Part shown: positions 5,214-63,122 of the stretch, piece by piece
How positions within the stretch are numbered: the stretch's first letter is position 1
How the letters are laid out: each line of letters begins with the position of its first letter
Source: Streptomyces sp. CG1
GTDB taxonomy: Bacteria; Actinomycetota; Actinomycetes; Streptomycetales; Streptomycetaceae
Length of the DNA stretch: 64,000 nt
Reading direction: 5' to 3'
NCBI RefSeq assembly: GCF_041080625.1
Contig: NZ_CP163518.1
Span: forward strand, 6,875,501-6,939,500
Made by a program: the position numbers and the translations under genes
Notes under the pieces: generated by a model
Seen by the model: the letters and a program-made list of their open reading frames with translations, nothing else
What the model was told of the DNA's origin: nothing
The model's database searches: none

Positions 5214-5287
5214 CGCGGGGTGGAGCAGCTCGGTAGCTCGCTGGGCTCATAACCCAGAGGTCGCAGGTTCAAATCCTGTCCCCGCTA
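5214..5287 (+). tRNA. initiator tRNA-fMet (CAU), copy 1
   Basis: 74 nt without an encoded CCA. Anticodon CAU sits in loop CTCATAA. Initiator features are visible: position 1 (C) and position 72 (T) do not pair, and the anticodon stem ends in three consecutive G:C pairs (CTGGG/CCCAG). The D arm contains AGCTCGGTAGCTC and the T arm GGTTCAAATCC. The CCA must be added by tRNA nucleotidyltransferase. The 74 nt are identical to the second copy at 7453. Confidence 0.97.
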
Positions 5288-5294
5288 CTGCGAT

Positions 5295-7452: not shown

Positions 7453-7526
7453 CGCGGGGTGGAGCAGCTCGGTAGCTCGCTGGGCTCATAACCCAGAGGT
7501 CGCAGGTTCAAATCCTGTCCCCGCTA
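7453..7526 (+). tRNA. initiator tRNA-fMet (CAU), copy 2
   Basis: 74 nt, identical to the copy at 5214, with the CAU anticodon, C1:T72 mismatch and three G:C pairs closing the anticodon stem, and no encoded CCA. Flanking sequences differ, so the identity stops at the tRNA plus three nucleotides. It has its own promoter region and terminator. Confidence 0.97.
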
Positions 7527-7535
7527 CTGAAGGCC

Positions 7536-54497: not shown

Positions 54498-55670
54498 ATG
54501 CCCCGTCCAACCAGCGACGTGCAAGCATTTGAAGCCCGCGCAAGTGACGCCGACCTCGACGATCTGCGCGCGCGACTGGCCGCGGCGCGGCTACCGGAGG
54601 CCGAGACGGTCCATCGCGCCGCGCCCGACCCGCGCCGGTGGGAACAGGGCGTTCCTCTCGCCGACCTCGTCGATGTCGTGAACTACTGGCGCACCGGGTA
54701 CAACTGGCGGTTGTTCGAAGAGCGCCTCGACCGGATCGGTCAGTTCCGCACGACCATCGATGATCTGGGAATCCACTTCCTGCACCGCCGATCCGCGCGC
54801 GCAGATGCCACTCCTCTGATCTTGACGCACGGCTGGCCAGGCAGCATTGCCGAGTTCGTCGATGTAGTGGACGAGCTGGCGGATCCGCAAGATGCAGACG
54901 CGCCGGCGTTCCACGTCGTGGTCCCGTCGCTGCCAGGCTTTGGTTACAGCGACAAGCCGGCGACCACCGGGTGGGGAACCGAAAGGATCGCGACCGCATG
55001 GGTGGCACTGATGGGCAGGCTCGGCTACAGCAAGTTCGCAGCCCACGGCGGCGACTGGGGAGGCAATATCACCACGGTTCTCGGCGGCAGGTTCCCGGCG
55101 CACGTTCTCGGCATCCACACAACGTTCGCGGAGGCGCCACCCGGGTTGACAACGGACGGGCTGACGGCGGTCGAGCGCACATGGACCGAGGAAACCCGCG
55201 ATTTCTGGCGCCACCGCGCGGCGTACGCGAAGCAGCAGGCGACCCGGCCGCAGACCATCGGCTACTCGCTCGTCGACTCACCGGTCGGGCTTCTTGCCTG
55301 GATCCTTGACAAGTTCGCCGAGTGGTCGGACACCGAAGACAGCCCGTTCGAGACGATTTCCAGAGACCGCGTTCTTGACGACGTCACCCTGTACTGGCTG
55401 ACGCGGACCGGCGCATCGGCGGCCCGCATTTACTACGAAAGCCACAACTCGCTCGATCCCGAACTTCGGGTCGACGTCCCGTCAGCAATCAGTATGTATC
55501 CCCGCGACATCGAGAAGTGTCCGCGCGCCTGGGCACAGGAGCGGTACCGGCAGATCGTCCGATGGAGGTCGCCCGAAACCGGGGGGCATTTCCCGTCGCT
55601 AGAGGTTCCCGAGTATTTCGTCAAAGATCTGCAAGAGGGCCTCGCGGCAGTGCTGGCCGCTAATCGGTGA
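54498..55670 (+). CDS. epoxide hydrolase (EHN family)
   Basis: 390 residues. N-terminal EHN cap (about 5-105) then an alpha/beta hydrolase core: oxyanion HGWPGS (111-116), nucleophile Asp186 in AAHGGDWGGNIT, and a C-terminal His in GGHFPSLE. It is a full-length microsomal-type epoxide hydrolase, soluble here. It adds water to an epoxide through a covalent aspartyl ester. A GAGG lies 10 nt upstream. Divergent from the CGNR regulator; probably an inducible detoxification or catabolic gene carried by the island. Confidence 0.9.
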   Translation: MPRPTSDVQAFEARASDADLDDLRARLAAARLPEAETVHRAAPDPRRWEQGVPLADLVDVVNYWRTGYNWRLFEERLDRIGQFRTTIDDLGIHFLHRRSARADATPLILTHGWPGSIAEFVDVVDELADPQDADAPAFHVVVPSLPGFGYSDKPATTGWGTERIATAWVALMGRLGYSKFAAHGGDWGGNITTVLGGRFPAHVLGIHTTFAEAPPGLTTDGLTAVERTWTEETRDFWRHRAAYAKQQATRPQTIGYSLVDSPVGLLAWILDKFAEWSDTEDSPFETISRDRVLDDVTLYWLTRTGASAARIYYESHNSLDPELRVDVPSAISMYPRDIEKCPRAWAQERYRQIVRWRSPETGGHFPSLEVPEYFVKDLQEGLAAVLAANR

Positions 55671-55834
55671 ACGCGGCTGGGTGCCGGCACTCGATCACTG
55701 CCTGATCCGGCGCAAGGCGTTGCCCGACGGCTTCCAGACCGAGTTCATCGAGACGGCAGAACGTGGTCAGACAGGGTGCGGCGAAGATAGCGTGGAGCAT
55801 GTCGAGGTCTTTCGGATGGTAGACCTCGACGCCT
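55660..55834 (-). pseudogene. N-terminal fragment of an ISL3-type transposase
   Basis: Minus strand, ending at TAG 55662-55660: about 57 residues including YHPKDLDMLHAIF, then CRLDELGLEAVGQRLAPDQ and AVIECRHP. This resembles the start of Streptomyces ISL3-family transposases (recognised from memory); the zinc finger and DDE catalytic parts are missing. It overlaps the last codons of the epoxide hydrolase. No terminal inverted repeats were found. A mobile-element scar. Confidence 0.55.
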
Positions 55835-55949
55835 ACCCGCCAACACCCCCGACTACGCCCTCAACTGCGAAGAGCCGGTATGTACGGTCATGGGCTGCGT
55901 CATCTCGATCGTTCCTGCACGGGGCGCCTGCCTGATCTGGGGCGAGGCA

Positions 55950-56306
55950 TTAGAGGCGCGAGAGCTGAATCTCGATGGCGAGGGCGCCGAGGGATTCCTT
56001 CTCGGGAGGGTAGATGGCGCGGATGTTGGTGAGCTGCTGGTCACGGGTGGTGGTGGGGTTGACATTGGCCGGTCCCTCGCCGTCGAGCAGGGCTTCGAAG
56101 TCGGAGTACTCGGTGACACGCTTGACCCTCACCTCGCAGGTCTCATCCGTGCCCTTGATACGGAAGCGGATGGTGTCGCCGGCTGCGAGGTCGGCGAGGT
56201 GCGGGTATTTCACCCGCACCTCGATGGTCTTGGTGCCCGCGGCGACGAGGTCGAAGTACTGCCGGTAGAGGTTGAGTTCGCGCACGCGGGCGGTGGTGTC
56301 GCTCAT
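55950..56306 (-). CDS. ASCH domain protein
   Basis: 118 residues: GTKTIEVRVKYP (24-35) is the ASCH GxKxxExR signature, followed by a beta-barrel with AAGDTIRFRI and CEVRVKRVTEYSDFEALL. The ASCH fold is related to PUA and binds RNA or nucleotides; E. coli YqfB of this fold hydrolyses N4-acetylcytidine. The start overlaps the stop of the upstream aaRS-like gene by 4 nt (ATGA), so the two are translationally coupled and should act together. Confidence 0.88.
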   Translation of the reverse strand: MSDTTARVRELNLYRQYFDLVAAGTKTIEVRVKYPHLADLAAGDTIRFRIKGTDETCEVRVKRVTEYSDFEALLDGEGPANVNPTTTRDQQLTNIRAIYPPEKESLGALAIEIQLSRL

Positions 56307-57418
56307 GGGGCGGGAACGCTCCTGGTGGCTGGTGCGGTCATCATGCGGCCGATCTCGGCGGCCGAGTACGAGCGGAAGAAGTGGCGGGGGTCGGACAGCA
56401 AGGTATCGATCATGGCCAGCAGTTGCTCGGCGTACTCCGCGATGGTTCCGGGCCACTGCCGGGTGTCGAGCAGCCAGTCGGCGGCGCCGAAGGGCAGGGG
56501 AGCGCGGCCTTCGTGGATCAGCGACTTGGACAGCTTGGCGCCGGTCTCGGTGACAACCTGGGGGCAGAACAAGCGGGCCGGGAGTTGCCCGCGGGTGAGT
56601 CCGACGGCCTGGAGGGCCTTGTCGACCAGGTGGGCGCCGAAGACCCAGTCGCCGCCTTTGACCATGACGTGCAGGGTGCCATGGGGGCTGGACAGGGCGA
56701 GTTCCTTGACCATGTTGCGGTACAGGGTGGCCAGGTCCAGGTAGACGCCTCCGGTCGGGGTGACGGTGGTTCGGTAGGAGCCGTGGTGGAGGCAAACAGC
56801 AGCCACTTGCGCGGCCTCGCGGTCGGTGAGGTGGACGCGGGTCCGTTCGGCCTGTTTCTCGGCCCAGCCGCAGCCGGGGTGCGGGCAGGGGATGCGGAGG
56901 TGCGGGATGCCCGTGGAGGGGGCGAGCCACCAGCGGGCTGCGTCGAGGCGAGGCAGGAGTCGCAGCCAGGTGCGGCGGAAGTGCTCGCCGGCCTGCTGCT
57001 GGGTGTAGGTCTCGACCCGGTGCGGGATGCCCAGGCGTCGTGACAGCGCAGTGAACAGTGGCTGGTAGAGGGCCGTGACGAGGTCGGCCAAGGCCTGGCC
57101 ACCGAGGGCCTGGGCGTAGGCGCGCTGGTAACGGTGGCCGGTCGCGGGGTCAGCGGACAGCTCATAGGGAGCGTTGTCGAGGGCGCTGAAGAGGACTTCG
57201 GTGGGTAAGTCGAAGCGGTCACGCAGTCGGGCGGCGATGGCGAAAGCCAGGGACTGCACGAGTGAGGTGCCGATGTGCGGGGCGCCGTTGATCTGGGTGC
57301 CGACGACCAGAACGATCCGCTCGGGCGGGGCGGCCAGGACGCGCGGGGTCAGAACGTCCTCAGCATGGTGGAGGGCGTTGGCCAGGACGGTGTTCGGTGA
57401 GACCGGGTGAGTCGTCAT
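56303..57418 (-). CDS. stand-alone class I aminoacyl-tRNA-synthetase-like catalytic core
   Basis: 371 residues. HIGH-type motif NGAPHIGTSL (44-53) and KMSKS-type motif GAKLSKSL (293-300) frame a Rossmann core. An inserted zinc-ribbon-like segment has Cys178, Cys183, Cys209 and His211. After the KMSKS only about 70 residues remain, so there is no room for an anticodon-binding domain; free-standing class I synthetases are longer. It therefore probably adenylates an amino acid or similar acid, or acts on a tRNA-like substrate, as MshC does for mycothiol. It is coupled to an ASCH gene and preceded by an unknown gene. Confidence 0.8.
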   Translation of the reverse strand: MTTHPVSPNTVLANALHHAEDVLTPRVLAAPPERIVLVVGTQINGAPHIGTSLVQSLAFAIAARLRDRFDLPTEVLFSALDNAPYELSADPATGHRYQRAYAQALGGQALADLVTALYQPLFTALSRRLGIPHRVETYTQQQAGEHFRRTWLRLLPRLDAARWWLAPSTGIPHLRIPCPHPGCGWAEKQAERTRVHLTDREAAQVAAVCLHHGSYRTTVTPTGGVYLDLATLYRNMVKELALSSPHGTLHVMVKGGDWVFGAHLVDKALQAVGLTRGQLPARLFCPQVVTETGAKLSKSLIHEGRAPLPFGAADWLLDTRQWPGTIAEYAEQLLAMIDTLLSDPRHFFRSYSAAEIGRMMTAPATRSVPAP

Positions 57419-57445
57419 GGGATGTCCCCGGAAGTGGGTTGGGGT

Positions 57446-57802
57446 TCACTCGGTTCGGGTGTGGCCGAAGAGGAGACGTTGGCGAAGGGTGCCGAGGTCG
57501 AGGTAGCTGTCGGTCTCGGCCGGAGTGGCGCTGCGGGCGAGCGGGTCCAGGCCGAGGACGAGGGCCACCGGGGTTCGTCGGCCGAGCAGGAGCGTCCAAG
57601 AGCGGCCTGCCGGGATGCGCTTGCGGTAGGGGGTGCTGTCGAAGCGCAGGGCGACCTCGGTGGGTGTGATCGGGCGCAGACGTGGCCCGATGTCCGGTGG
57701 GGGCGCGGTGGCCGGCTCGAGGTGGAGGGTCTCGGCGATCGTCTGCATGCGTTGCTCGACGACGGTCTGCGCCTCGCACCGGCTTCGCGGCCGCTGGGGC
57801 AC
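57446..57802 (-). CDS. hypothetical protein, first gene of the aaRS-like operon
   Basis: Up to 118 residues (GTG 57802), or 100 from the ATG at 57748 (MQTIAETLHLEPATAP). The middle is well ordered-looking (ALRFDSTPYRKRIPAGRSW, TLLLGRRTPVALVLGLDPL) and the C-terminus is helical (YLDLGTLRQRLLFGHTR). No family recognised. It ends 27 nt before the aaRS-like start on the same strand, so the three genes form one likely operon. Confidence 0.6.
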   Translation of the reverse strand: MPQRPRSRCEAQTVVEQRMQTIAETLHLEPATAPPPDIGPRLRPITPTEVALRFDSTPYRKRIPAGRSWTLLLGRRTPVALVLGLDPLARSATPAETDSYLDLGTLRQRLLFGHTRTE

Positions 57803-57915
57803 CAGCAGGAGGCAGCAGAGAGTGGCGCCGGTCGGGGCGGTGTCCAGTCACGTGAAGGTGGCCAGGGAAGCGATCAGCCCGGCGGAGATCGTGAGCGATC
57901 CGGTGCTGGCGGGAG

Positions 57916-58308
57916 TCAGAATGCCGGCACCGTGCTGTGCTGGAAGGCGGCCCACACGCACTTGCCGGGGCCCCGGCGTTCCTCCACGCCCCAGTCGTCG
58001 GCGAGGGCTGAGACGAGCAGTAGGCCGCGGCCGGTCTCGGCGGTGGCCGGTACGTGTCGTCTGCGGGGTGGGGCGTCGTCGGTGTCGTGTACTTCGATGC
58101 GGAGTTGGGTGTCGGCGAGGGTGATGCGCACCAGCGCCAGTTCGCCTGAGGGGGCTCCGTGCAGGATGGCGTTGGTGGCGAGTTCGAACTGCCCGGCACC
58201 ATCACGGTGCAGGATCCCGAGCCGGTCATCGCGCACATGGCCTCCTATCGGGCGGGGGCGGACCAGCACCGACCTGCCCTTCGACGCCACGATCGAGCGG
58301 GCCCGCAC
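57916..58308 (-). pseudogene. truncated RsbW-like (HATPase) regulator
   Basis: The C-terminal two thirds of a Streptomyces-type anti-sigma ATPase is recognisable: ELATNAILHGAPSGELALVR (N-box), LRIEVHDTDDAPP (G1) and GRGLLLVSALADDWGVEE (G2), then GKCVWAAF. The expected N-terminal strands and helix before the N-box are replaced by unrelated sequence (VRDDRLGILHRDGAGQ), so the gene looks truncated at about 58190. A short frame of unknown origin on the + strand (to 58387, ending EVTCLGGILVCRR) overlaps this junction. Possibly still translated, but I treat it as a remnant. Confidence 0.6.
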
Positions 58309-58430
58309 GATCCTCCTCGATCACATTGCCCAGCAGGGGACCTTCGAGGTCACGTGCCTGGGCGGCATCCTCGTCTGCCGCCGCTGACGGGTGACCCGGA
58401 GATCCGCTAAGGCTGTCTGCGTACAGGCAA

Positions 58431-58462
58431 GGGGCCCGGTTCGGCGATGCCGACCGGGCCCC
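58431..58462. terminator. strong hairpin at the island edge
   Basis: Perfect 10-bp stem GGGGCCCGGT / ACCGGGCCCC with a 12-nt loop. Its right arm is the beginning of repeat copy B, and copy A repeats only this right half without the left arm. Confidence 0.7.
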
Positions 58463-58630
58463 TTGCACGGGACAGAAAGCCTCAGGCCTTCTTGGTCTCC
58501 TAGTAACGGGCCGGGTCGGTGACCTGCGGGGATCTTCGCTGTGGGTCGCTGACCTGGCCTTTTGGCGATTGGTGGCGATGGGGTGCGACGGTCCTGATCG
58601 GGTGTCCTGCGGACTGTGTGCGGACTGCTG
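58453..58630 (+). repeat. composite direct repeat, copy B (right)
   Basis: Block 1 (58453-58489) and block 2 (58599-58630) are the counterparts of copy A at 53556-53627; block 2 is identical at 31 of 32 positions. The intervening about 110 bp is absent from copy A. Confidence 0.75.
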
Positions 58631-58803
58631 TCCCGCCCGGGGGGGTAGGCGGACGACGTCGGACCCTCGGCGGACCGGAACCCCGGCGGCCCGGAGCCGG
58701 CATGTTTGCGGGGTGCGCCGACTGCCGGTGATCTCCAGAGTCTGCCGCGCTGGCAATCGGGACGAAGCGGGGTGATCGAGGCGCGAGAGACTAGCCTCGG
58801 GTC

Positions 58804-59781
58804 ATGGTGACGCGCACCCGGCTGTATCACGACGGCACTCTCGTCCTGGAGGACTTTCCCGCCAGTGACGTCTCCGCGCATCTCGCCGACCCGGCGTCGG
58901 TCCTGTGGCTGGACCTGTACCGGCCCGGGCCTGCCGAGTTCACCATGCTCGGCCAGGAGTTCGGCATCCACGAACTCGCTCTGGAGGACGCCGTACAGCG
59001 TGGGCAGCGGCCGAAACTCGACCGCTATCGCACCCACGAGTTCCTCAGCGCCTATTCCGTCACCGTCAGCCCGGACGATGCGGAACTGTCATACAGCGAG
59101 ATCGCCGTATTCCTCACCAGCCAGGCCGTGATCACCGTCCGCAAGGATGACGGCTTCAACATCGAGAACGTCGTCAGCCGCTGGGACGAGAGCCCGGACC
59201 TGGCCGGCCACGGTGTCGGATTCCTGCTGCACGGCCTGCTCGACCATCTCGTGGACGGCCACTTCGTCGCGGTCCAGCAGCTGGACGACAGCATCGAGGA
59301 GCTGGAGGGTCTGCTCTTCGTGGCCGGGCGCCGTGAGATCGAAGCCGTGCAACGCCGGGCCTTCGCGCTGCGCAAATCGCTCGTCCAGTTGCGCCGCGTC
59401 GTGCTCCCGATGCGGGAGGTGGTCAACACCCTCATGCGCCCTGGCCTGCACGTGATCACCGACCCTCTCGTCCCGTATTACCAGGACGTCTACGACCACG
59501 TGCTGCGTGCCACCGAATGGACGGAATCGCTGCGGGACCTGGTGGCCTCGGTCATGGAGACGAACCTCTCGGTCCAGGCCAACAGCATGAACCTGATCAT
59601 GAAGAAGGTGACGAGCTGGGCCGCGATCATCGCCGTACCCACCGCGATCACCGGCTACTACGGCCAGAATCTCCCCTTCCCCGGTTTCGGCCGCCAGTCC
59701 GGATTCATCACCTCGGCAGCCGTCATCGTGGTCTTGTCCGCCGTGCTGTATCTGACGTTCAAGCGCAAGGACTGGCTCTGA
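58804..59781 (+). CDS. CorA-like magnesium/cobalt transporter
   Basis: 325 residues. A large cytoplasmic N-terminal domain, long helices (LDDSIEELEGLLF, RREIEAVQRRAFALRKSLVQ) and two C-terminal membrane helices separated by YGQN in AITGYYGQNLPFPGF. Canonical CorA has YGMN; here the Met is Gln, as in many distant members. It is a pentameric divalent-cation channel, though selectivity may differ because of this change. Confidence 0.88.
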   Translation: MVTRTRLYHDGTLVLEDFPASDVSAHLADPASVLWLDLYRPGPAEFTMLGQEFGIHELALEDAVQRGQRPKLDRYRTHEFLSAYSVTVSPDDAELSYSEIAVFLTSQAVITVRKDDGFNIENVVSRWDESPDLAGHGVGFLLHGLLDHLVDGHFVAVQQLDDSIEELEGLLFVAGRREIEAVQRRAFALRKSLVQLRRVVLPMREVVNTLMRPGLHVITDPLVPYYQDVYDHVLRATEWTESLRDLVASVMETNLSVQANSMNLIMKKVTSWAAIIAVPTAITGYYGQNLPFPGFGRQSGFITSAAVIVVLSAVLYLTFKRKDWL

Positions 59782-59974: not shown

Positions 59975-60511
59975 ATGTCCGTGACCATCGACCGTACGAC
60001 ATCGGGCAGGCGCGCGCCGTCGCTGCCAGCTCGCCTGTCCCTGACGCCCGCGCCGGGCGGGCTGGACGGCACGTGGTGGCCTCGTTCCCGTGCCCTCACG
60101 CGTGAGCTGCCACCCTTGACGGCCGCACTGGGCGACCTCTGGGGTCGCATTACGCGTATCACGGTGAACCCGACCTACTGGCCCTTGATCCCGCGTCGGG
60201 TGTCCGTCGCCGGACGCACGGTGCGTGTGGGCTGGTCCACCGAAGAGCAGGATCCGCACAGACTGACCTTCTTCTCCGCCGATGGCCGCCGGGATGTGCT
60301 GGTGATTCCGCCGGAAACCGGTGCGGATGCCGCCGCGCAGCTGATGGCGGGCGACGGTATCGATGCCCCGGCCCGGAAGGAAGCAGCAGACAGGATCGAC
60401 GCCCGGATCAGGGAAGAAGCGTGGGAGACCGACGGCGGAGCAGGTCGGCCGTCGTCCCTGCCCCGGCCCATCGGCTCGACAGGGCGTTTGCCCGCCGGCC
60501 AACGGAGGTGA
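59975..60511 (+). CDS. DUF5994 family protein, copy 1
   Basis: 178 residues. The core TPAPGGLDGTWWPRSRALTR, then VAGRTVRVGWSTEEQD and RRDVLVIPPETGADAAAQLM, is the DUF5994 pattern found in actinobacteria. Function is unknown. The C-terminus (about 130-178) is polar and probably disordered. A paralogue lies at 61330; two small genes sit between. The following gene starts 7 nt after its stop. Confidence 0.8.
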   Translation: MSVTIDRTTSGRRAPSLPARLSLTPAPGGLDGTWWPRSRALTRELPPLTAALGDLWGRITRITVNPTYWPLIPRRVSVAGRTVRVGWSTEEQDPHRLTFFSADGRRDVLVIPPETGADAAAQLMAGDGIDAPARKEAADRIDARIREEAWETDGGAGRPSSLPRPIGSTGRLPAGQRR

Positions 60512-61196: not shown

Positions 61197-61329
61197 TTGC
61201 TTGTTTCCGTAACCGCGCCCTGCGGCGAAGCGCTCGCGCGAGCGTCGTGCGGAGTACCGTGAGGTAGCAGGGCCGTATCGCGGTCGCATGCTCTGCGATG
61301 GCACTGCTCTCTGCGGACGGGCGGACACC

Positions 61330-61815
61330 ATGGCCGACTCAGACACCCCCGACCTCCCCAGGCTCCTGCCGGACGCCGTCCACCGGTCGGTGAAACCCGG
61401 CACGGCCCTGCTGAGGCTGGAGACGACACACTCACGCGAGGGAGTCCTGGACGGCGCATGGTGGCCGCGGTCCCGGGACATCGGCGCCGAACTCCCCTCG
61501 CTGATCTCCGCGTTGACCGAGCACCTCGGACCTGTCATCCGGGTCGGTCTGGACGGCAGCGCCTGGGACGAACTGCCGACCCGGGTGATGGTCGACGGCC
61601 GAGTCGTCCACATCGATTCCTTCCCGGTAGGTGACGACACCGTCCTCATCACCCGGGGCGACCAGGACCATTTCTCCCTGATGCTGGTCCCTCCGGACAC
61701 GTCGCCCGACGCGGCACGCGCCGCGATGGCCAGGGCCGTACGGGCCGACAACGTCACCGAGGCCAAACAGATCCTCATCGATACGGGCGGCGGCATGCCT
61801 CCTGCGCCGGCCTGA
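61330..61815 (+). CDS. DUF5994 family protein, copy 2
   Basis: 161 residues: GVLDGAWWPRSRDIGAELPS, VMVDGRVVHIDSFPV, HFSLMLVPPDTSPDAARAAM. It is clearly paralogous to the gene at 59975 but without the disordered tail. The ATG at 61330 lacks a strong ribosome site. Function unknown; convergent with the GNAT-AAA+ gene. Confidence 0.8.
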   Translation: MADSDTPDLPRLLPDAVHRSVKPGTALLRLETTHSREGVLDGAWWPRSRDIGAELPSLISALTEHLGPVIRVGLDGSAWDELPTRVMVDGRVVHIDSFPVGDDTVLITRGDQDHFSLMLVPPDTSPDAARAAMARAVRADNVTEAKQILIDTGGGMPPAPA

Positions 61816-61853: not shown

Positions 61854-63122
61854 CTAGATGCGGGCGTACTTTTCCGTTTGCTGGGCGAATTCCTGGGCCA
61901 TGGCAGAGCTGACCGTGGGCTTGGTGTCGCGGATCGTGTCCAGGTAGTCGTCGGTGGTGGGGGTGGTCCGGGATCCGGTGTCGAAGGTGCGCTCGAACTG
62001 GGCCTGGGAGACGGTTCGCGCCGCGTGGGCGATGTCGGCGGGGGTGAACCCCTCGCTGGCGGACGCGAGTACCGCGCTGTCGGCCCGCGCGCCCGCTCGG
62101 GCCAGGTAGCTCTCCCACAGTGCGGTCCTGGCGGTGTGGTCGGGAGGGCCGATCGGCAGCACGTAGTCGAAGCGGCCGTGCCGCAGGAACGCGGAGTCGA
62201 GCGTGGTCACGTTGTTCGTGGCACAGACGAGCAGCCGTCCGTCCTGGCTTCGGAACCGGACGATCGCCTTGAGCAGTTCGTTGACGACGCCGACAGCGGT
62301 CGCGTCCGCGCCGCCGCGTTCGCCGGCGATCTCCTCGACCTCGTCGATGAAGACGAGGACGTGGTCGAGCCGGGCGATCTCGTCGAAGCGCCGGTTCAGC
62401 CCGGTCGCCAGGCCGTACTCGGCGGCCAGACGGGCGGGGAACAGTTCGAGGAAGGGCCATCCCAGGCGGCTGGCGATCGCGTGCGCGAACGTGCTCTTGC
62501 CGGTCCCGGGCGGGCCGAACAGCATCACCGCCCGTGGCAGCTCCACTCCGTGCTGGGCGGCCAGTTCGGGATGGGCCAGCGGCAGGACCAGGCGCCGCTC
62601 GATGAGCTGCTTCTCCCGTTGCATGCCCGCGACCTTCTGCCACAGTCCCCCTGGCGGCAGCTCCGCTCCGAGCGAGGACAGCGTGCCGGCCGACTGCGGG
62701 GTCACCGGCCCGCGCTTTTCGAAGAAGACGAGCCCGGGGCGGGCGCCGAAGTCGCAGTTGCGCAGGGCGGTGGCACCGGTCTCGCCCTCGGGAAGGACGG
62801 CGTGCACCGCTCGGACGCCGGCGGCGAAGAGCCGTTGCTCAAGGGCAGTGATCAGGGCACTGCCCAGCCCGCGCTGCCGCCAGGTGGGCGCCATGCAGAT
62901 GCGCAGGAGCCATGCCCGTTCGCCCTCCACCCTGCTCACCGCGGCGCCGATCAGCACGTCGTCGGCCGTGGCCACCACAGCCGGGTGGCGGGCCTGGAGG
63001 GCCGTCACGGCGTCCGAGAGCGGGAAGAGCGGCGGCTCCTCGGTCGTGCTGCTCTCCATGTCGACTCGGATCAGCGCTTCGAGATCGTCCTGGGTATAGT
63101 CCCTGACCCGCCAACCCGTCAT
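61854..63122 (-). CDS. GNAT-AAA+ ATPase fusion protein
   Basis: 422 residues. The N-terminal GNAT domain (about 1-140) has the acetyl-CoA loop QRGLGSALI (83-91). The AAA+ domain (about 165-400) has Walker A GPPGTGKST (203-211), Walker B VLVFIDEVEE (255-264), sensor 1 CATNN and the arginine-finger region LRHGRFD. The AAA part is of the FtsH/Cdc48-like class. A fusion with GNAT suggests acetyltransferase action coupled to remodelling of a protein. The start is ATG 63122. Confidence 0.85.
   Translation of the reverse strand: MTGWRVRDYTQDDLEALIRVDMESSTTEEPPLFPLSDAVTALQARHPAVVATADDVLIGAAVSRVEGERAWLLRICMAPTWRQRGLGSALITALEQRLFAAGVRAVHAVLPEGETGATALRNCDFGARPGLVFFEKRGPVTPQSAGTLSSLGAELPPGGLWQKVAGMQREKQLIERRLVLPLAHPELAAQHGVELPRAVMLFGPPGTGKSTFAHAIASRLGWPFLELFPARLAAEYGLATGLNRRFDEIARLDHVLVFIDEVEEIAGERGGADATAVGVVNELLKAIVRFRSQDGRLLVCATNNVTTLDSAFLRHGRFDYVLPIGPPDHTARTALWESYLARAGARADSAVLASASEGFTPADIAHAARTVSQAQFERTFDTGSRTTPTTDDYLDTIRDTKPTVSSAMAQEFAQQTEKYARI

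Follow-up and report, generated by a model that had tools for sequence, protein, structure and literature searches.

In a 64,000-nucleotide stretch of the Streptomyces sp. CG1 genome (contig NZ_CP163518.1, positions 6,875,501 to 6,939,500 of the forward strand; hereafter the window), we find two adjacent genes that encode a stand-alone catalytic core of the class I lysyl-tRNA synthetase (LysRS-I) type and an ASCH-domain protein. Core and ASCH together are the constant unit, a near-obligate pair that is carried on mobile DNA. Our leading, though still tentative, explanation is that mobile elements carry the pair as an amino-acid ligase whose acceptor is a nucleoside- or nucleotide-type small molecule.

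Results

The core and the ASCH protein form a near-obligate pair

Pairing was followed in 107 loci, comprising 80 loci from named genomes, out of 128 that were confirmed, 11 other genome loci including a second copy of the module in the same genome, 10 loci from IMG/VR, five from phages or plasmids, and the window itself. The set, which contains some near-duplicates, began with 108 loci, of which one weak match (L138) was dropped because it gave no tblastn match at 1e-5; short single-match loci were left out of locus counts. Gene calls were obtained in 104 of the 107 loci, the GC-based caller giving none for L102, L105 and L106.

In 104 of the 107 loci the core is followed by an ASCH gene. Of the remaining three, L085 lies at a contig end and two are distant kin, one from Pantoea and one from Macrococcus. 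At 16 loci the two form one continuous open reading frame (ORF), and the 88 split pairs are mostly joined by an ATGA overlap (81 pairs; another arrangement in four, short or frameshifted in three). In a profile search, with a profile rich in fused-clade rows, all 120 listed of 743 matches carry PF04266, and the window's genome has only two ASCH matches, each adjoining one of its two cores. This co-occurrence across genomes, sometimes as a fusion, bears out the first-pass annotation of this DNA, which had coupled the core to the ASCH protein and had raised the possibility that the neighbours part company elsewhere; for this pair they do not. The 118-residue protein encoded upstream, which the same annotation had placed in one operon with the pair, fared differently: a related frame lies upstream of the core in just 22 of the 107 loci, and we dropped it as a fixed third partner.

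In three plasmid records, L107 (11063), L173 (9063) and L174 (9072), the gene table shows only the ASCH end of an unbroken fused core-ASCH ORF, which may be an artefact of an incomplete gene table.

The core retains class I active-site residues

The core gene is real beyond chance, because 727 homologues were found among 8000 candidates scored and the ratio of nonsynonymous to synonymous substitution rates (dN/dS) between the genome's two cores is 0.27. The corresponding values for the ASCH, 118-residue and HATPase proteins are 0.23, 0.41 and 0.66. These ratios speak for past constraint, from which it does not follow that the window copy, a relic (see below), works at present.

Both class I signatures are found in the core, HIGH within NGAPHIGTSL and KMSKS within GAKLSKSL. 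Four residues of a putative zinc site (C178, C183, C209 and H212) are the same in all 15 members aligned, two of them kin at 23–26% identity, and are likewise unchanged in all 49 nearer core members. Comparison of a structure model identifies LysRS-I as the nearest class I catalytic fold: residues 17–371 align with residues 3–339 (of 507) of LysRS-I 1irx, and the core has nothing beyond. The model thus supports a core without a C-terminal anticodon-binding domain. A normal synthetase orthologue was rejected, as this domain is missing and the genome already has a LysRS-I.

The gene product downstream passes the curated cut-off of PF04266 (46 bits against 21.2). Much of what had first been described therefore holds, namely three minus-strand genes with a 27-nt gap between the 118-residue gene and the core and a 4-nt ATGA overlap between core and ASCH, the two motifs, a zinc-type insert (zinc binding being putative), the ASCH identity, and a stand-alone aminoacyl-tRNA synthetase (aaRS)-like core that is not a full-length orthologue. 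The statement that the core has no known name stands in part: PHROGs has the family as phrog_35625, labelling the phage relatives 'tRNA synthetase', a label without a function, and those of the ASCH protein (phrog_19935) 'RNA-binding protein'.

Other searches returned little. Against Pfam (E ≤ 1) the core gave a single insignificant and unrelated match (E 0.086, below cut-off), against NCBIfam none, and against PF01921 (class I LysRS) none for the window core, with two distant kin at 23.8 bits, under the cut-off of 27. Set against the genome's own LysRS-I, the core reached a profile probability of 0.5 as a single sequence and 89.8 with fuller alignments. Searching the PDB by sequence gave nothing usable, and the best Foldseek match in a viral library was an unnamed 511-aa protein. 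The predicted fold of a fused core-ASCH protein (pLDDT 63) was left unused. The 118-residue protein had no match in Pfam, and a promoter scan over 55500–59000 found none.

Partners and regulators vary around the pair

At 31 of the 104 loci with gene calls, a methyltransferase and an XRE/TPR-like regulator lie upstream, usually divergent from the operon. DUF218 and/or WbqC with another XRE/TPR-like regulator mark 13 loci, a third regulator upstream of the core nine, and the fused-clade genes up295 and/or an AAA_28 kinase 14, leaving 37, the window included, in no module class. An XRE-type regulator lies within 4.5 kb upstream of the core in 64 of the 104. Only the third regulator has a helix-turn-helix (HTH) match over the Pfam cut-off; the HTH of the other two and the TPR of all three were assigned from sub-threshold matches and reading by eye. 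Among frames upstream of the core (available for 105 of the 107 loci), HATPase occurs in 42, the 118-residue family in 22 and c33 in 13.

A tree of 95 cores pairs the window core with that of the second copy as sisters (98/87). The WbqC/DUF218 form makes up one group (100/97) within a 44-row group (97/92), the rest of which consists of methyltransferase forms and three unclassified rows. Because the WbqC/DUF218 group nests among methyltransferase forms, the tree indicates that partners were swapped while core and ASCH remained together. A methyltransferase-dependent system was dropped, since the enzyme adjoins the core with its regulator at only the 31 loci above and also occurs without the core. 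A tRNA substrate travelling with the pair was likewise dropped: of 49 loci scanned with ARAGORN, 45 have no tRNA gene and four have one or more.

Two single loci are recorded here as side observations. At L168 the methyltransferase/regulator pair occurs without the core; genes nearby on the opposite strand include a NUDIX-like one and one for a 373-aa protein that by eye looks NAD-binding, a setting in which the pair may serve other effectors. On a linear Streptomyces plasmid (L108, 9191–9670), the next annotated gene upstream of the core-ASCH pair encodes PycTM, a Pycsar effector.

The pair lies on mobile DNA and the window copy is a truncated relic

Besides three phage records from two phages, the core is present in 13 plasmid records, of which one is a fragment, and in 12 IMG/VR loci from two scans; one of these loci equals phage Picard in length. 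These records support carriage of the pair on mobile DNA. The distribution of the core is patchy: 9 of 41 relatives have it, as do 27 of the 199 genomes searched in the genus (seven of them partial or in pieces) and 6 of the 396 searched in the phylum (own genome counted; one in pieces, one weak). In Picard the order is DUF397, XRE-DUF5753, HATPase, a phrog_12213 protein, core and ASCH, after which comes a serine integrase.

The second copy lies 12.5 kb away, beyond the window, among an integrase (PF00589), HTH genes, a DnaB-like helicase, MobC (24 bits against a cut-off of 23.2) and a relaxase (PF03432), its surroundings ending at sodN (nickel superoxide dismutase). None of these integrase or relaxase genes is kept at the window copy, which has only an attachment (att)-like 19-mer. 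Within 81.5 kb and at up to four mismatches, this 19-mer adjoining the relic is the only other match to the 19-mer at the 3' end of sodN, a recurrence that suggests repeated insertion at one site; a left att of the second copy was looked for and not found. With phage and plasmid carriage and the integrase-bearing second copy, the shared 19-mer supports the island that had been proposed.

Compared with the second copy, the window copy is without about 2.2 kb. Missing are the regulator, the bulk of the methyltransferase gene and the beginning of the HATPase gene, whose first part is replaced by an antisense reading of the methyltransferase tail (Table 1). The window copy is therefore not the complete compact operon of the earlier description; it is what remains, after truncation, of a longer module with divergent transcription. 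The HATPase relic, methyltransferase tail, att-like site and second copy had been overlooked.

Table 1 Features of the module in the window (positions within the 64,000-nucleotide stretch).
Feature	Position	Strand	Details
ASCH-domain protein, 118 aa, partner of core	55950..56306	-	ATG at 56306, end at 55950; PF04266, 46 bits; phrog_19935; ATGA overlap with core
Class I LysRS-type catalytic core, 371 aa, without anticodon-binding domain	56303..57418	-	ATG start
KMSKS motif, residues K295-S299 (KLSKS)	56522..56536	-	K295, L296, S297, K298, S299 invariant 49/49
Putative zinc-site insert, C178...C183...C209..H212	56783..56887	-	Four residues invariant; putative zinc binding
HIGH motif, residues H48-T51 (HIGT)	57266..57277	-	H48, G50, T51 invariant 15/15 and 49/49
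118-aa accessory protein, short form of phrog_12213	57446..57802	-	GTG start; 67 bits
Relic of HATPase_c_2 (AbaA/RsbW-like) gene	57916..58308	-	PF13581, 1e-9; homology to second copy stops at 58186
3' tail of S-adenosylmethionine (SAM) methyltransferase gene, rest missing	58179..58383	+	81.6% identity to second copy, G000 C1 6948428-6948629
att-like 19-mer	58482..58500	+	One mismatch to sodN 3' end beside second copy's integrase gene

Another genome (L169) has this methyltransferase family beside sodN, without the core there; the sodN 3' end (here G000 C1 6955170 onward) may be an integration hotspot. A SpoIIE-phosphatase/GAF protein is encoded between the two copies (G000 C1 6942001–6943242, beyond the window). 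DUF5994 paralogues lie near the module at 59975–60511 and 61288–61815 of the window, and just past the window end are two ORFs resembling them by eye and a 71% inverted repeat. Elsewhere in the window, 61854–63122 encodes a single protein that has a GNAT domain at its N terminus and an AAA domain at its C terminus, and two tRNA-Met(CAT) genes on the plus strand (5214–5288 and 7453–7527), 2.2 kb apart, are identical at 75 of 75 positions.

Discussion

A small-molecule acceptor is the favoured reading

Adenylate formation by the core is predicted from its conserved motifs. Because the HIGH, KMSKS and zinc-site residues are conserved on a LysRS-I fold, the core would convert ATP and an amino acid to an aminoacyl-adenylate. 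Because the anticodon-binding domain is missing, the aminoacyl group would then pass not to tRNA for translation but to a small molecule of nucleoside or nucleotide type that ASCH holds; ASCH would act by binding, not by YqfB-type hydrolysis. Module-specific partners (methyltransferase; DUF218 and WbqC; AAA_28 kinase) might prepare or finish the product, with an XRE-type or WhiJ-type regulator controlling the operon. The core probably joins an amino acid to something besides ordinary tRNA, and charging of normal tRNA by it is unlikely.

Distant kin inform this reading. Searching with the Pantoea and Macrococcus proteins gave 38 proteins, including ones from Pseudomonas syringae and Croceifilum, none with a precomputed PF04266 domain, and no viral contigs carrying this clade were found. 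The Macrococcus core follows two ATP-grasp genes near an MFS transporter, and the Pantoea core stands beside a methyltransferase, a TIGR00730 protein, a DMT transporter and an NTP pyrophosphatase; both neighbourhoods look biosynthetic. Metabolite or nucleoside ligation is favoured because of these kin, the kinase, methyltransferase and nucleotide-enzyme neighbours and the missing tRNA gene, and because aaRS-like cores combined with a small barrel domain have a precedent in passages of PMC11705231.

Several observations weigh against this reading. The biosynthetic-looking neighbourhoods belong to kin at only 22–25% identity to the window core, whose function may differ. LysRS-I kinship rests on the fold and on a bridge through the distant clade, and near-clade cores alone gave a profile probability of 6.1 with LysRS-I. 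An hhalign comparison of the core with 14 CysRS/MshC proteins gave 0.1; this is a weak comparison, as the control of LysRS-I against CysRS also gave 0.1. Partner enzymes differ from module to module, and the methyltransferase, present in 24 genomes, occurs in 13 without a core match and adjoins the core in seven of the 11 with both. No transporters were seen among recurrent named neighbours, many neighbours being unnamed, and protein charge gave no clear signal. ASCH/PUA-like domains, finally, are usually tied to nucleic acids, according to passages of PMC7641849, favouring an RNA acceptor.

A bolder version seems unlikely to us: a two-component aminoacyl-nucleoside synthase, formed by the LysRS-I-derived core and ASCH, whose product would diffuse and act as a signal or an inhibitor that the exchangeable XRE-type regulator reads, so that the elements make and sense an amino-acid-nucleotide hormone. 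It is with the same reserve that we suggest such a regulated cassette, not described before, on phages, plasmids and integrative elements of Actinomycetota.

Alternative explanations

The main rival, possible though somewhat doubtful, is an RNA-modifying ligase resembling Glu-Q-RS (YadB), in which the core activates an amino acid and ASCH docks the RNA, tRNA or another kind, that then receives it on a base. Translation of the host or element would perhaps be altered as a result. Such an enzyme would fit the PUA-like nucleic-acid-binding superfamily of ASCH (in passages of PMC7641849), the YadB plan of a core without an anticodon-binding domain (as excerpted from PMC9437257) and carriage by phages and plasmids; it fits less well that 0 of 38 distant kin have a precomputed ASCH domain and that no tRNA gene is a constant neighbour of the pair. 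In the portions of PMC9599836 consulted, the YqfB-type ASCH tested is judged unlikely to act on RNA, one passage mentioning protein-tRNA complexes.

We think it improbable that the pair is the effector of a toxin-antitoxin, abortive-infection or superinfection-exclusion system. Its accessory place on a temperate phage, plasmids and an integrative element, the patchy distribution and the exchange of regulator and partners among modules speak for such a conflict module, as do the PycTM gene beside one plasmid copy and the predicted toxin-antitoxin operons combining ASCH, a P-loop ATPase and XRE (in passages of PMC7641849). The XRE-type regulator as control switch and the exchangeable partners as sensors are no more probable than the module itself. 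None of seven proteins, however, matched any PADLOC defence model, in a database (PADLOC-DB) that covers described systems only, and the active-site residues are kept as for synthesis.

That the core is a sensor without catalysis, which binds adenylate or an amino acid and with ASCH and HATPase/XRE regulates the element or host development, is quite improbable. The frequency of nearby XRE-type regulators and the likeness of Picard's DUF397/DUF5753/HATPase trio to bldB/whiJ/abaA (passages of PMC10294661) recommend it, but a pure sensor has no obvious need for HIGH and KMSKS residues invariant in 49 of 49 members, and XRE-type genes are common in Streptomyces, against which the 64 of 104 has to be read. 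Despite LysRS-I kinship and the PHROGs label, a back-up lysyl- or other aminoacyl-tRNA synthetase charging normal tRNA, for example an antibiotic-resistant one, is very improbable given the missing anticodon-binding domain, the lack of a PF01921 match and the LysRS-I already in the genome.

Significance

Recruitment of aaRS cores outside translation is a known kind of event, with cases from other lineages in passages of PMC9437257. The core described here is a widespread, mobile and functionally undescribed branch of LysRS-I type with a near-obligate ASCH partner. Because of this partnership and its natural fusions, the acceptor question is directly testable with two small proteins or one fused protein. 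Most ASCH domains have no assigned function, as stated in part of PMC6972931, and the pair would give them a defined enzymatic partner; it would also show what a temperate phage gains from an amino-acid-activating enzyme. PHROGs labels of the phage proteins were already known.

Comparison with known systems

A literature search found no paper on the core/ASCH pair among the matches listed, most subscription papers being outside its reach. With class I LysRS (PF01921; 1irx) the core shares the class I fold but neither the anticodon-binding domain nor a family match, and its motifs around the pocket, GTQxN and ALDNAP, are by eye unlike those of the LysRS-I encoded in the same genome. BshC and MshC are amino-acid ligases with aaRS-like cores, and the core has no Pfam match to either family. 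To our knowledge, neither has an ASCH partner.

YqfB, an N4-acylcytidine amidohydrolase, uses the triad Lys21, Thr24 and Glu74 (passages of PMC6972931). At these columns all nine family rows have K, E and V; because two of three catalytic residues are missing, ASCH is probably a binder, and a YqfB-type hydrolase was dropped.

Streptomyces phages Picard and Mojorita carry genes (phrog_35625, phrog_19935) of the same family as the window pair, with no functional study of them among the literature matches listed. Picard and the window share 71% identity and the gene order with HATPase and the phrog_12213 protein; the phages differ in the regulator pair and serine integrase alongside. Beside the pair in Picard, the DUF397, XRE-DUF5753 and HATPase_c_2 trio recalls the bldB/whiJ/abaA set of DUF397, XRE-DUF5753 and HATPase genes (passages of PMC10294661), whereas the window has only the HATPase relic and an effector pair different from abaA and iosA.

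Like Glu-Q-RS (YadB), the core is a stand-alone aaRS core without an anticodon-binding domain (passages of PMC9437257); Glu-Q-RS itself is of GluRS lineage, and it has no ASCH. Like the PyrN-type MetRS-like/cupin hydrazine synthetases (passages of PMC11705231), the pair combines an aaRS-like activation domain with a small barrel domain; where PyrN unites the MetRS lineage with a cupin, the pair unites the LysRS-I lineage with ASCH.
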